Below, piece by piece: positions 44,751-50,405 of a DNA stretch of 64,000 bases. The notes beneath the pieces were generated by a model. That model saw nothing but the letters and a program-made list of their open reading frames with translations, was not told the DNA's origin and did not search any database. Position numbers and translations under genes: made by a program. Every line of letters begins with the position of its first letter. Positions within the stretch are counted from its first letter, which is position 1. The stretch is from Nitrospirota bacterium. Lineage in GTDB: Bacteria > Nitrospirota > Nitrospiria > Nitrospirales > Nitrospiraceae. The stretch lies in the NCBI GenBank assembly GCA_030684575.1, contig JAUXVD010000008.1:124001-188000 (forward strand). The letters run 5' to 3'.

Positions 44751-45545
44751 TTATTCCTGACGGAGTACCGCCGCGGGGATGTCATTGGCCAGCGGACTCG
44801 GGATGGGGCTGTGGCCGGAACTGATCTCGCGTTCGTCCTGGCCATCAATGTGCAGGGAGGTTCCTCTACGCTGTCTGGTGAAAAAGAGATTCAAGAAGGC
44901 GATGAAGAAACTTCCCCCCACGAGCAACAGGCTTGTGCGCTGGATCGCCAGGGTGCCCTCATCGCGCATGTCTTTCGCCACATCCGCCACAGTGTCTAGC
45001 AGCCGATCCAGCGCGAGGCTGACCTGAATCATTTTCGGGCCTGCGTTGTCGGAGGCATGCTCTTCCGCTTTTCGCCTGATGGCTTCCCGTTCTGCCGGAG
45101 AGACGGCGGTCCATTCTTGCGTCAAGAGTTGTATGGTCGTGCTGGCTACCGAAAAATACTGATCGAGACTGCGCCGGACCGCCTCGATATCCTCAGGCTC
45201 ACTGCGCCCGCTCCGTGAGACGCGCAGCCCCGCAGCCGCATACCGGTCTACGGCATGCTGAATTCTCGCGCGTTGTGCGGGCAGGGATTCCGTGATTCGC
45301 TCGAAGTCCTTCTGGCTGTTCGCTTCGAGCGCGCGGATAATGGTGTTCCGGTACCGCATGATGTCTGCGGAAATATGGGCAAGGTCGGTGGCCCCGAGTG
45401 TGTACTCGGTATACATAATGCGTAAATCCTGATCGACGCTGCTCAGGGCTTGCCCGCTGAGCCATCCCAGGCCGGCCACGAGGAAGCTGATCAATAGTTG
45501 TGAGGCGCTGGGACGAAATGATCGAAAAAATGTTGTCAGTCCCAC
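44751..45545 (-). CDS. Membrane protein with a periplasmic four-helix-bundle (4HB_MCP-like) domain and no output domain
   Basis: The 264-residue protein has a membrane helix near the N terminus (LLISFLVAGLGWLSGQAL), about 160 residues of long amphipathic helices (DLRIMYTEYTLGATDLAHISADIMRYRN and following) and a second membrane helix (LLLVGGSFFIAFLNLFF). A short ~40-residue tail follows. This is the sensory half of a chemoreceptor, but the HAMP and signalling domains are missing. It starts 13 bp after the stop of the ABC exporter gene and is the last gene of that operon, so it may sense or stabilise the transporter. Confidence 0.75.
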   Translation of the reverse strand: MGLTTFFRSFRPSASQLLISFLVAGLGWLSGQALSSVDQDLRIMYTEYTLGATDLAHISADIMRYRNTIIRALEANSQKDFERITESLPAQRARIQHAVDRYAAAGLRVSRSGRSEPEDIEAVRRSLDQYFSVASTTIQLLTQEWTAVSPAEREAIRRKAEEHASDNAGPKMIQVSLALDRLLDTVADVAKDMRDEGTLAIQRTSLLLVGGSFFIAFLNLFFTRQRRGTSLHIDGQDEREISSGHSPIPSPLANDIPAAVLRQE

Positions 45546-45558
45546 TCTGTTCCCCTAC

Positions 45559-47247
45559 TTAATCGAGAATGATTCGTCGATCGACGTGCGGTGTGAGATT
45601 CGGATCGTTCGACACAAAGATCACCGACCAAGGTTCGTCTTTTGAACAGAGCCGTCGCAAGACGGTCTCGCGCATGGCCGGCTGCATATTGTGGATGATG
45701 CCGTCAAAGATCAGAATTTGTGGACGGGCGAGAATCGCGCGTGCGAGTAAAATCCTCATGATATGAGTCGGGGTAAGAACTTTCCCGGGGGCTCGGACGT
45801 GGGTCTTGAGTCCCTGGGGGAATGCGTCGACGTCGTCTTCGAGCTCGGTAAAGCGCAACGCCCACCGGACGTCGCCGTACGGAATATAGGATCGTCCCAA
45901 CAGGATGTTGTCCTCGATCGTGCCCTCGAACAGCGAGAGCTGGGAATCGATCATGAACCCTCGACAACGATTGATCGCCTGAAGATCGAGGTGTCGAAGG
46001 TCTACCCCGTTATAGCGAAGGACCCCGCCGGTTGGCGCTTCCAGTCCTGCCAAGACTCGTGCGAGTGCCGTTTTGGCTACCGCCGTACTGGCGTAGACGC
46101 CGATTTTTTCGCCGGGGGTGACTTCAAGGTTGAAGTGTTCGAAGATCGGTGGCAGCCCTGGGTGGATGACGGCGAGGTCTTTGCTGGTCACGCGAATGCC
46201 GTGAATGGTGGGATCCGGCAGTGGGACGGACAGGGTGGCGGAGGCTTGGTCTTTCGGAAGCGAGAAGAAAAAGTCGAGTTCGTTCAAACCGGTGAGGAAG
46301 TAATAAATATGTCCCATACGTTTGACGACGGCATCGAAACTCAGGAGGAGCCCGCTGACAACCACCTCGGCGGCTACCAGTTGCCCGAGCGTCAATTGGC
46401 CGATGGACAACAACCATCCGGCAGTGGCAAGGAGTCCGCTGTGGGCGATGGCTTGCCAGCCGACCGATGCCAGGTACTGGCGAATCAGAATGCCGAATCG
46501 AGTTTGTCTGGTTTCGACGTACGACTGGACTAGCTCATCGGTCCTTCCCGTCAGTAGCGCTTGACTATCCGCGGCTTTGAAGTGCAACAGATTAAACGAG
46601 ATCTCCTGCAGCCAATGCAGGGTGTCGTATTTTGCATGGGACGTGTTGATGGTGGCCTTCAGCCCTCCATGCGACATAAGAAAAAAGACGACGGTAAACC
46701 CTGCCATGAGTAAGGCGTTATACAGCAGGAAGTAGGGATGATAAAAGACCAGGATGGTCATGCCGACCGTCCCGCCCACGATGACATTGATCAGGTCAAC
46801 GAGGAGGACGGAGAGCGCCCGTTGGATAAAGACTGTCTCCACGAAGTAATTGGCATAGCGGGGCTTAAACCCTGAAATTTGCAGTTGGGGTAACTGTTGG
46901 GCCATCCCGAGGGCGACCCGAGCGAAGATCCGGCGCTCCAACACTTCGACGGAGTAGAACTGTAAGGCCCGAAACGCTCCGACGAACATGAGCCCGGCCA
47001 CCATCACCCCCGCGAGGGTGACAATGGTGATGGGCTGAATGGCGAAGGCAAACGTGTTGACGAGCTCTTGGACTGTGAGAGGGACAATGAGAGAGAAGAG
47101 TCCGATGGCGAGTGAATAGGAGACGATCAGGGCGAGGATCCGCCGCTCCAAGCGGAAGAGGACGCCCAGGCATGCGAGCATCGATTGGAATAGATTCTGT
47201 TGGTGGCCGACCTGACTTTGCACGGAATCTGCCTTCTTCTTCGGCAT
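45559..47247 (-). CDS. ABC exporter-like protein with a degenerate nucleotide-binding domain
   Basis: The 562-residue protein has the architecture of a type I secretion ABC exporter: a six-helix membrane domain (about 35-325) followed by an NBD (about 345-562). The NBD has lost most catalytic motifs. The Walker A glycines are replaced by alanines, leaving AxxAVAKT at 386-393. The signature LSGGQ reads LTPTH at 491-495. Walker B keeps D515 but the catalytic glutamate is G516, and the switch histidine is N547. The Q-loop (IDSQLSLFEGTI) is conserved. It is therefore unlikely to hydrolyse ATP alone. The start at 47247 lies in a long hairpin; an in-frame start at 47289 would include its other arm. 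HlyD-like and TolC-like genes lie upstream in the same operon. Confidence 0.88.
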   Translation of the reverse strand: MPKKKADSVQSQVGHQQNLFQSMLACLGVLFRLERRILALIVSYSLAIGLFSLIVPLTVQELVNTFAFAIQPITIVTLAGVMVAGLMFVGAFRALQFYSVEVLERRIFARVALGMAQQLPQLQISGFKPRYANYFVETVFIQRALSVLLVDLINVIVGGTVGMTILVFYHPYFLLYNALLMAGFTVVFFLMSHGGLKATINTSHAKYDTLHWLQEISFNLLHFKAADSQALLTGRTDELVQSYVETRQTRFGILIRQYLASVGWQAIAHSGLLATAGWLLSIGQLTLGQLVAAEVVVSGLLLSFDAVVKRMGHIYYFLTGLNELDFFFSLPKDQASATLSVPLPDPTIHGIRVTSKDLAVIHPGLPPIFEHFNLEVTPGEKIGVYASTAVAKTALARVLAGLEAPTGGVLRYNGVDLRHLDLQAINRCRGFMIDSQLSLFEGTIEDNILLGRSYIPYGDVRWALRFTELEDDVDAFPQGLKTHVRAPGKVLTPTHIMRILLARAILARPQILIFDGIIHNMQPAMRETVLRRLCSKDEPWSVIFVSNDPNLTPHVDRRIILD

Positions 47248-47292
47248 GGTCCTGCCTCTCGTTGCACTGCGTGAGAGGGGCAGGACCATGCC
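47243..47292 (-). promoter_or_regulatory. Long stem-loop covering the start codon of the ABC gene
   Basis: GGCATGGTCCTGCC (47243-47256) and its exact complement at 47279-47292 form a perfect 14-bp stem. A further TCTC/GAGA stem (47257-47260 with 47273-47276) lies inside it. In the mRNA the start codon and the GAGAGG ribosome-site region would be paired, so the structure could limit translation of the ABC gene relative to the upstream TolC gene. Confidence 0.65.
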
Positions 47293-47362
47293 GATATAAG
47301 GGAATACGCGCGTTATGCGCTCACGCTATCAAAGCAGTGAAAGAAAAGCCACTTCTTCTCAA

Positions 47363-48847
47363 TCAATCTCTTGCGCGATAGGTCACGGGAGTCACAAACG
47401 GTGTGGTTCTAGCCCAGGCTCCGATGGCCCATTGGTACAAGGCCTGGGCCTTCTGATAGTCCGCCTTGGCGCGGATGACCTGGACTTCTGAGTCGACCGA
47501 ATTCCGTTCGCGTAAATTGACGAAGAGGACACTGGTGGCTCCAAGGCTAAACCGGAAACGCTCCCCTTCTTCAAGGGTTTTGGCCAGGCGGAGGGATTCC
47601 GCCGCGGTCGCGACACGTTCCTTGGCACGTTCGAGAGCAGAGAGGGCATTATCGACGTCGATGAGCACTTGTTGCTCGCGGAATTGCTGCATGAAGACAA
47701 ATCGATCTGCCTTGCCTTGCGCTTCCAGGACTTCGCCGCGGCTCTTTCGCTGGAGGATCGGAATCTTGAGTTCCAGTCCAAAGCGGTAGCCGAGCCCCAG
47801 CACGAACTTCTCCGGCGCACGGGCGGGCGCTGCCTCAGCATCCAGGCTGGGGAGGAGGTTGTTCTTGGCCAGCTCCAGATCGATGTTGTTGAGTTTAGCT
47901 TCGATGCCGATTTCCTTGACCTCCGGCCGATCGACTTTCGCTTGGAGTTTATGGGCAATGATCGTGTCAGGCGCCGGCACGAGCATCGCCGACGGAAAGT
48001 TCGGGGCTCGATCCAGAGGCGGCGGGACGGGCGCATTATTATCCCAGAGGAACATGGACAGCTTCAGCTGTTCTTGCTCTACCAGCCGCTGCACGGCGAT
48101 GGCCACCTCGCGGCGGCGCTGCACTTCCTGATTGGCCTCGACCACGTCGAGCGGCGCGACGGCCCCTGCCTTGGCGCGGCCCTCGACCTGTCGATACCGG
48201 TCTTCGGCCACTCCTACGGCCCGGCGCTGCACCTCCGCAAGTTTTACTGCAGTGACCCAATCCCAAAACTGTGTGGCTGCGGCAAGAAACAGGTCCTGTC
48301 TCGTTTGAGAGATCTGCACCTCGGCCTTTGGGTCGGCCAGTTCGGATCGTTGGAGTTCGGCATTCTCGGGATTTACCATGAGGCCTCGAAGCAGCGGGAT
48401 GAAGCCTCCGAGGAGGACTTGGTTGTTGCCTCCGCCGAATGAAAGATCGGGAATCTTGGCATTGCCGATGGCTTCACGGACTCCGGCACTGTAGCGGAAG
48501 CCCCAGGGGTGGCGGGCCTCGATAAGCGTGTCGTTGAATCCCACCGTTTGGGTGCCTTTGCCCGGGTTTGAACTGGAGATGAACCGCTCAAGCTCCGTAT
48601 CGTTGATGAGGGTGGGCTCAAAGGCGCCTAGGGCCTTGAGCATTTTCCCTCGCGCCATGGTTTTCTCTGTACCGGCTCCCCTGAGGAGTGGGTGCGAACG
48701 ATCGATCCAGGCGTGAATCTCATCGACGCTCAAGGGAATCGGCGGGAGCGATTTCGATTTCATCGGCTCTTCCGCAGAAGTGGGGAAGGGACAGAGCCCG
48801 ATCGAACCCAGGAGCAGTACGACTGGAAGATAGTGACGGGAATGCAT
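47363..48847 (-). CDS. TolC-family outer membrane efflux protein
   Basis: The 494-residue protein begins with a signal peptide (YLPVVLLLGSIGLCPFPTSA). It has the two long coiled-coil halves typical of TolC proteins: one around ATQFWDWVTAVKLAEVQRRAVGVAEDRYRQ and AKAGAVAPLDVVEANQEVQR, the other around VLEAQGKADRFVFMQQFREQQVLIDVDNAL. It should form the trimeric outer-membrane duct of the export complex encoded with the HlyD-like gene upstream and the ABC-like gene downstream. Confidence 0.88.
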   Translation of the reverse strand: MHSRHYLPVVLLLGSIGLCPFPTSAEEPMKSKSLPPIPLSVDEIHAWIDRSHPLLRGAGTEKTMARGKMLKALGAFEPTLINDTELERFISSSNPGKGTQTVGFNDTLIEARHPWGFRYSAGVREAIGNAKIPDLSFGGGNNQVLLGGFIPLLRGLMVNPENAELQRSELADPKAEVQISQTRQDLFLAAATQFWDWVTAVKLAEVQRRAVGVAEDRYRQVEGRAKAGAVAPLDVVEANQEVQRRREVAIAVQRLVEQEQLKLSMFLWDNNAPVPPPLDRAPNFPSAMLVPAPDTIIAHKLQAKVDRPEVKEIGIEAKLNNIDLELAKNNLLPSLDAEAAPARAPEKFVLGLGYRFGLELKIPILQRKSRGEVLEAQGKADRFVFMQQFREQQVLIDVDNALSALERAKERVATAAESLRLAKTLEEGERFRFSLGATSVLFVNLRERNSVDSEVQVIRAKADYQKAQALYQWAIGAWARTTPFVTPVTYRARD

Positions 48848-48968: not shown

Positions 48969-50405
48969 TTATTTCGCACCTCGCCCTGCTTTTGGCAAGA
49001 GCGTGTCGATGAGGCTCGGTGGGCGTTCTTGATAATCCGGCGGGAAGAGATTGAAGCGCCGCCAGATCTCGTACCACAGGGGGACCCGGTTTAAGATGAC
49101 CCATCCCATGGCTTTGGTCCCCTGGCGGACATGTTCTTGTGGAGGCCAGGCCCGATCGTCTGGATCCGGGACTACCCAGAAACGAAAGTTTCCCTTGCCG
49201 TCGTCGACTTGGTCGATGACCTTGATGACGCCACCATAGGTTCCTGCCATGATCTCCGGCCAAGCTGGGAGAGGAATAGCTGGAATCCCATAAAACAAGA
49301 CGCGTACCTTCCGGCCTACGTTGAGCAGCGGGGCGTCCATTCCGTCAGCCACCATCTCAAGGGCTTTGTCGGCACTCGCCGGAGAAAGCATCACGAGTTT
49401 GTCCCCGGGGCGGACGGTCTCACCGGCACCGGCTTGAGCCATCTTTACCACGGTGCCATCGATCGGGGAGAGGACGTGCCCGGCGAGCCGGCGTTGTTCC
49501 GCGTTGGACATCCGCAGTGAGACATCGGCCAGTTGATCGGTGGCTTTTGCTGCTTCGCCGATAGAGGCCTCACGGGCCGCTTCTGCGTCGAGCAATCGTT
49601 GCAGGACTTCTGCGCTGACCTGGTCGCGGCCGAATCCGAGAGCCTTCATGGCCTGTTCTGCTCCCTTGAGGTTGGCTTGTGCTCCGCTCAGATCGGCTTT
49701 GGTGGCCAGCGCCGATTGAATGGTCAACTCGAGTTCGCGTTGCGACACGAGGCCCTGTTCCGCTAACTGTTTGTGCCGGTCCATATTCAACTCGGCTGTT
49801 GCGACCGCAATTTTTGCTGCTTCGACTTTCTGGTAGGCCTCCCGGACCTTATTCTCAGATTCGATCACGCGTGCCTGGGCGGACGGGACCGCGGACTTAA
49901 CGAGGTTCTGCATCTCCTTGATCCGTTTATCCAATTGTTCGGCGCGGGCGAGCGCCGCCTTGCGACTTTGATCCAATGCCTTGCGTCGTTGGTCTAAGAA
50001 GGAGAGGAGGTCCGGAGACATGAAACTGGGGTCGTAGTCCTCCAACTCAAGAATGAGATCGCCTTGCTTGACGCGCACCCCCTCAAAGATGTGCCACTTC
50101 TTGATCCGTCCGGTAATCTGCGCTTCAATATACTGCGGACGTTCGGAGGGCGTATAGGCGGAGAGTTGTCCGCTGACGGTAATCGTCTGAGTCCAAGGCA
50201 CGAAGGCGATGATCAAGAGAAACAGGAGTACGAGTTTGATGGCGAGGCGCGAAGAAAATCGAAGCCGCTCGGGGATTTGGACCGCTTCCCAGGACTGAAG
50301 TTTTCTGGAGGTCGCAAGTTCGTCGATGCCGATCTCATCCAGGCCGGTGCCCCGCCTGACGAGGGAGCGAACTTTGTTTCGCAAATCCTGTGTGAAGCGT
50401 GCCAC
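48969..50405 (-). CDS. HlyD-family membrane fusion protein
   Basis: The 478-residue protein has one membrane helix (about 53-72, LAIKLVLLFLLIIAFVPW) and a barrel/lipoyl part (QYIEAQITGRIKKWHIFEGVRVKQGDLILEL). A coiled-coil hairpin of ~170 residues rich in Ala, Glu, Lys and Gln follows, then the returning half (HVLSPIDGTVVKMAQAGAGETVRPGDKLVML). It links an inner-membrane exporter with a TolC-type channel. It is the first gene of the four-gene operon HlyD-TolC-ABC-4HB and is divergent from purE. Confidence 0.88.
   Translation of the reverse strand: MARFTQDLRNKVRSLVRRGTGLDEIGIDELATSRKLQSWEAVQIPERLRFSSRLAIKLVLLFLLIIAFVPWTQTITVSGQLSAYTPSERPQYIEAQITGRIKKWHIFEGVRVKQGDLILELEDYDPSFMSPDLLSFLDQRRKALDQSRKAALARAEQLDKRIKEMQNLVKSAVPSAQARVIESENKVREAYQKVEAAKIAVATAELNMDRHKQLAEQGLVSQRELELTIQSALATKADLSGAQANLKGAEQAMKALGFGRDQVSAEVLQRLLDAEAAREASIGEAAKATDQLADVSLRMSNAEQRRLAGHVLSPIDGTVVKMAQAGAGETVRPGDKLVMLSPASADKALEMVADGMDAPLLNVGRKVRVLFYGIPAIPLPAWPEIMAGTYGGVIKVIDQVDDGKGNFRFWVVPDPDDRAWPPQEHVRQGTKAMGWVILNRVPLWYEIWRRFNLFPPDYQERPPSLIDTLLPKAGRGAK

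Follow-up and report, generated by a model that had tools for sequence, protein, structure and literature searches.

A HlyD-TolC operon of Nitrospirota with an ABC exporter subunit that appears to be ATPase-free

How would an envelope-spanning exporter work if its ABC subunit could no longer hydrolyse ATP? The question is raised by an operon in the 64,000-nucleotide stretch of Nitrospirota DNA analysed here (the window), in which genes for HlyD- and TolC-family proteins accompany a gene for an ABC exporter-like subunit with a degenerate nucleotide-binding domain (NBD). A sequence-only reading of this DNA had described a type I secretion-like operon whose ABC subunit is catalytically degenerate, a description that our analysis supports.

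An operon of type I secretion build

Four genes lie on the minus strand in the order HlyD, TolC, ABC, four-helix-bundle membrane protein, with the following features:

48969..50405, minus: HlyD-family membrane fusion protein, 478 aa (Pfam HlyD_3 2.2e-7, above cut-off; NCBIfam type_I_hlyD 5.9e-19, below cut-off)
47363..48847, minus: TolC-family outer membrane protein, 494 aa (Pfam OEP 4.1e-32)
47241..47294, minus: RNA hairpin in the TolC-ABC gap, directly upstream of the ABC ribosome-binding site (fold z -6.4)
45559..47223, minus: ABC exporter-like subunit with a degenerate, apparently dead NBD, 554 aa from the probable GTG start
46264..47193, minus: predicted six-helix type IV ABC exporter membrane domain, residues 33-342 (AlphaFold2 model; VIA match to HlyB)
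45562..46197, minus: degenerate NBD, residues 365-576 (Pfam ABC_tran 5.8e-8; NBD fold kept in the model)
44751..45545, minus: 264-aa protein with a four-helix-bundle sensory domain (Pfam 4HB_MCP_1 6.7e-8, above cut-off)

The ABC exporter gene is where the sequence-only reading had put it, on the minus strand; its location stands, but the 5' end then given, 47247, is the second ATG. We place the probable start at the GTG at 47223 because close homologues align without either of the upstream ATGs; the resulting length of 554 residues is that of three relatives (L039-L041). Counted from the first ATG (47289), the gene would occupy 45559..47289 on the minus strand and encode 576 residues, and it is from this ATG that residues of the ABC protein are numbered throughout. 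The companion HlyD and TolC genes had been taken to be intact, and both are indeed complete, upstream of the ABC gene and on the same strand. In the 264-residue protein we see, by eye, two membrane helices that flank the four-helix bundle; it has no kinase or chemotaxis signalling domain, and its gene occupies the equal operon position in most main loci. As for the hairpin (47241-47294), none of 200 shuffles was as good, its arms differ in relative L014 with pairing kept, covariation across 7 sequences is weak, and an Rfam search gave zero matches.

AlphaFold2 predicts a full exporter protomer for the ABC protein (pLDDT 79, pTM 0.69), in which a six-helix membrane domain and an NBD adopt the exporter arrangement of the type IV fold. 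Among solved structures, HlyB from the HlyB/D complex 8dck comes nearest to this model (first in the Foldseek ranking; VIA against 8dck_A: Z 29.2, rmsd 2.5, 532 residues aligned), and the degenerate NBD is itself predicted to fold like HlyB. The likeness to type I secretion (HlyB-HlyD-TolC) therefore comprises an operon with HlyD and TolC genes and a model that is closest to HlyB; the differences are that the window's operon lacks ATPase motifs and any recognisable substrate gene. None of the NCBIfam models for type I ABC proteins comes near its cut-off with this protein, and that for the NHLM bacteriocin exporter ABC protein scores 126.7 bits against a cut-off of 853.3. We describe the architecture as type I secretion-like, with an ABC subunit that, judged by its residues, appears to lack the ATPase that membership requires.

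Motif loss across the family

The catalytic motifs of the NBD survive as remnants:

46069..46092, minus: Walker A remnant ASTAVAKT, residues 400-407
45943..45948, minus: Q-loop position, D448-S449 replacing x-Gln
45763..45777, minus: signature remnant LTPTH, residues 505-509 (L505-T-P-T-H509), replacing LSGGQ
45700..45714, minus: Walker B LIFDG, residues 526-530, with Asp529 kept and the catalytic Glu replaced by Gly530
45607..45609, minus: switch His replaced by Asn561

In Walker A (A400-S-T-A403-V-A405-K406-T407), three Gly have become Ala and the Lys and Thr are retained; the aromatic residue of the A-loop is lost as well. The changes previously noticed in the Walker A glycines, LSGGQ, the Walker B Glu and the switch His can all be verified in the residues. 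The Q-loop, on the other hand, is not intact as had been claimed: in a HMMER alignment, the Gln of P-glycoprotein falls on S449, and the adjoining Q450 is not conserved among first-family proteins (see below). With ABC_tran this NBD scores 37.3 bits; elsewhere in the genome, the 33 best matches reach 92.5-131.9 bits.

With a profile of the ABC protein at 1e-80, we found the gene in 77 of 295 genomes of the phylum, all in two families (here the first and second family) of one order. The window's HlyD, at 1e-20, matches 78 of the 295, namely those 77 and G070, such that matching HlyD and ABC genes occur together in 77 of 78 genomes. A search of genome contigs, limited to the best 80 of 547 relatives, yielded 78 loci with Nitrospira-type titles, including Ca. 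Nitrospira defluvii. We picked 41 loci for inspection: 38 contain HlyD, TolC and ABC genes, and 3 contain ABC alone.

Motif states were counted after 241 frames matching the family profile had been reduced to 174 distinct proteins covering >430 model columns; the counts refer to the 159 that cover every motif position, with 15 left out. Consensus Walker A, SGGQ, the Walker B Glu and the switch His each occur in 0/159. The Q-loop Gln is found in two of the 159, D448-S449 is fixed in 159/159 first-family proteins, the Walker B Asp persists in 131 and the signature Gln in 61. As a control, the same alignment was applied to 11 normal NBDs that the window's genome also encodes: GxxGxGK[ST] and Asp-Glu are present in 11/11, and the switch His in all seven that cover its position. 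Gly530 is fixed in all 161 proteins covering the position, and the NBD's own new invariants include G530, H533, C548, W554 and D562. Furthermore, dN/dS against eight relatives is 0.05-0.13 in the membrane domain and about 0.04-0.20 in the NBD (for L043, dS in the NBD is saturated). Strong purifying selection acts on the dead NBD.

These data bear directly on the proposal that the window's gene reflects local pseudogene decay or a sequencing error. Such a proposal might draw on the erosion of Walker A and A-loop, which is most marked in some clades, on a broken hlyD in one relative (L223) and on the remnant that persists in G070. Against it stand the conserved synteny and, above all, identical losses in 159/159 relatives together with low dN/dS in both domains; these last two rule out both decay and error in the case of the window's gene, and we give the idea hardly any credence. 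Alignment of homologues had been put forward as the means of recognising local decay by the normal motifs of relatives; with such motifs in 0/159, that expectation is not borne out. Given that none of the 159 proteins has the functional ATPase motifs that type I secretion, or an ATP-driven type IV exporter, requires, the ABC subunit is very probably ATPase-free. The remnant in G070, a 2 Mb genome, lies in the syntenic place (L222, 7316-8605) and is a shortened HlyD without the N-terminal membrane helix; the TolC, ABC and four-helix-bundle genes are gone.

Nucleotide binding need not have disappeared together with hydrolysis: some family members might still bind nucleotide, because the Walker A Lys is retained in 129/159 and GK[ST] in 22. 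The ABC subunit could then be a switch that binds ATP without hydrolysing it, nucleotide setting its conformation so that it senses the energy state; an aromatic residue at A-loop position 376 in 30 of the 159, and the NBD fold kept in the model, also agree with this. However, the window's own protein has lost three Walker A glycines and the A-loop aromatic, second-family members have lost the Lys (of 15, 13 have Arg and 2 have Gly), and forms exist in which there is no NBD at all. We consider a switch improbable.

Relatives without an NBD, and the case for a partner ATPase

The gene is present in 20 of the 48 genomes of the second family: 15 copies are full-length, two are cut by contig ends, and three consist of the membrane domain only. 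The last three (L181, L182 and L223; 337, 346 and 337 aa) lie inside contigs, 3' of HlyD and TolC genes, and in L181 and L182 a different gene starts directly downstream. A tblastn search of these two loci with the NBD gave nothing significant; whole-genome searches of all three genomes revealed no family NBD elsewhere, the matches being to ordinary ABC proteins at 8e-20 or weaker. Pfam and NCBIfam have nothing informative to say about the NBD-less protein. Its AlphaFold model is weaker than that of the window's protein (pLDDT 73, pTM 0.65); Foldseek returned two matches below 0.001 (ComA, rmsd about 11), and VIA returned ABCC/SUR-type membrane domains with Z up to 18.9. SbmA does not appear among the matches listed, which excludes nothing.

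Because the three NBD-less proteins form one clade (support 100/100) within the second family, we conclude from the sequences that the NBD was deleted in one event. Of 55 membrane-domain positions that full-length relatives conserve, P134, N233 and K238 alone differ in two or more of the NBD-less proteins, and all three positions fall within the coupling-helix zones 130-147 and 226-243. These zones hold 5 of the 55 positions, a coincidence with a chance of 3.8e-4, bearing in mind that the zones were drawn after the positions were known. When each of the 15 full-length second-family proteins was left out in turn, there were six deviations, none of them in these zones. The coupling-helix changes fit the notion that NBD-less proteins are free of contact with any NBD. 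The clade could also be decaying, because it has a higher dN/dS (0.23-0.29) and because L223, one of the three loci, has an in-frame stop in hlyD at about 5600, directly after the membrane helix; it is because of this stop that HlyD dN/dS rows with L223 were discarded.

Such relatives are relevant to the idea that a normal ABC ATPase, encoded at another place in the genome, forms a heterodimer with the ABC subunit or drives it, in the manner of a degenerate-site exporter such as TmrAB. Degenerate partners in known heterodimeric exporters retain ATP binding; the window's protein has lost its Walker A glycines. The type IV fold, and tandem paralogues in some genomes, are shared with TmrAB, TM287/288 and BmrCD, and two family ABC genes are indeed present in 12 of the 41 inspected loci (11 tandem pairs; in L070, two separate loci on one contig). 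However, in the window's family both paralogues are dead: the tandem partners also lack the motifs, and none of them has a consensus catalytic site. Heterodimeric exporters with one degenerate site are described in the part of PMC8277102 that we draw on, and the genome of the window encodes three normal half-exporters (L189-L191), but these are unlinked to the operon and resemble MsbA or MsbA-related proteins. The earlier suggestion of pairing with another NBD is thus not supported, on three counts: the tandem paralogues are dead, the genomes of the three NBD-less forms have no family NBD at an unlinked site, and exactly those positions that lie in the coupling helices are relaxed there. We regard a trans-acting ATPase as distinctly unlikely, although an unlinked one might still serve the full-length lineages.

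In several lineages the residues that bind nucleotide are eroded further. Members that keep GK in Walker A fall on either side of the midpoint root, which was placed for drawing only, and we found no sister group with normal motifs. Because these members flank that root, and because the Glu, the His and SGGQ are kept by no member, the simplest reading of the sequences is that hydrolysis would have been lost first, that nucleotide binding was eroded next, and that deletion of the domain came last, in one lineage.

Energy source of a putative ATPase-free complex

What, then, might drive the complex? Our leading interpretation, to which we give a little less than an even chance as a whole, is an ATPase-free, tripartite envelope complex that is most likely driven by an ion gradient, as SbmA is. 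Its parts differ in strength. We consider independence of ATP to be well supported, and infer the energy source, the substrate and the direction. It is likely that the ABC subunit is still a transporter or conduit, whereas we treat drive by an ion gradient as a tentative proposal. We hypothesize an envelope-spanning transport complex of type I secretion build with an ATPase-free ABC subunit in the inner membrane: the membrane-domain dimer would still alternate or gate, and would hand cargo to a HlyD/TolC conduit; an ion gradient could act on the membrane domain through conserved residues (E75, D165 and H184 being candidates); the dead NBD may have been kept to serve as a structural clamp; and gating of the complex may fall to the four-helix-bundle protein. 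E48, E75, E151 and H184 are invariant, with NBD-less proteins included, and in the model E75 belongs to predicted TM1 and H184 to the turn between TM3 and TM4. Other type I ABC proteins, too, may commonly have E48, E151 and D165.

SbmA, as described in excerpts of PMC13316013, is proton-driven, has an ABC-like membrane domain, and is thought to derive from an ABC transporter after NBD loss. SbmA/BacA peptide transporters (SLiPT) share with the window's protein an ABC-exporter-like membrane domain, and SbmA works without ATP; it differs in being an importer with a TM0 domain and a glutamate ladder, and with no coupling helices. The window's system has HlyD and TolC partners, and its NBD is usually retained; the SLiPT hallmark of having no NBD applies to the three NBD-less relatives and not to the window's protein. 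The ladder of SbmA may be set against the conserved acids of the window's family, for which a position in the cavity and coupling to protons are hypothetical. Although a Pfam family for SbmA/BacA exists, it matches neither the window's protein (E up to 1) nor the three NBD-less proteins (E up to 0.1).

The strongest rival is a passive or ligand-gated conduit: the ABC dimer would form an unpowered gate or channel of the inner membrane, cargo or the four-helix-bundle protein would open it, and cargo would move downhill through HlyD/TolC. ABC folds do act as a channel or a channel regulator, CFTR and SUR1 being examples. In accord with this, motor motifs are missing from every member, deletion of the NBD is tolerated, and a sensor-like four-helix-bundle protein is encoded in most main operons. 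However, 14 of the 41 inspected loci have no four-helix-bundle match, so gating by this protein cannot be general. The sequence-only reading had listed both a different energy source and a gated channel; we favour the former, and consider the unpowered conduit unlikely, while ranking it above the trans-acting ATPase, which in turn ranks above the ATP-binding switch.

Energy sources other than ABC ATPases have been proposed before. A SecA_DEAD + HlyD/M50 module with a type I-like HlyD and a proposed non-ABC energy source is reported from Nitrospirae in the portion of Kamneva 2015 (PMC4452313) that describes it; in contrast to the window's operon, its loci hold no ABC homologue. We rejected this module for the window: no SecA_DEAD gene adjoins HlyD, and the matches in the genome lie on contigs C19 (full) and C1 (below cut-off), the window being on C8. 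A weak parallel is Salmonella SPI-4, as presented in extracts of PMC12607715, in which SiiAB, a proton channel, supplements a type I exporter but the ABC protein still hydrolyses ATP. In our literature search, we found no earlier description of the window's ABC family.

What can be said about the conversion of primary, ATP-driven pumps into secondary transporters rests, to our knowledge, mainly on SbmA/BacA. The family supplies what can be viewed as living intermediates, all with the same partners: a dead NBD with the Walker Lys, a dead NBD without it, and no NBD. That a HlyB-like ABC exporter has turned into a secondary, ion-driven transporter within a HlyD/TolC complex, the stages of motor loss being visible in living species, is a conceivable course of events, if one that we put forward with reserve. 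If true, tripartite envelope transporters that work without ATP would make up a new class, in one bacterial order. The annotation of HlyD-TolC-ABC operons as ATP-driven type I secretion is called into question, in important nitrite oxidisers.

The surroundings of the operon vary. Because flanking genes differ between the two families, a link to polyamines or purines that might be read from the neighbours is unsupported. At the syntenic locus in one genus (L059, L065, L069-L073), three tandem TolC-like genes precede ABC and HlyD, two being visible in L071, at a contig edge. A LysR-type regulator, NhaR-like by eye, adjoins the HlyD gene in L058, L067, L070, L176, L178, L181 and L182, on the strand opposite ABC. 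In L074 (6381-8480), a frame change separates the membrane domain of one tandem ABC copy from its NBD. Downstream of the NBD-less genes (L181, 5504-8465 and 8477-11731; L182, 1996-8209) are genes for a Proton_antipo_M protein (Pfam, L181) and a large protein, which we take to resemble the DAB bicarbonate-uptake pair. Solitary ABC copies of the family, with HlyD and TolC missing (L060-L062, L170, L172), adjoin, by eye, a PAS-type sensor kinase and an NtrC-like regulator.
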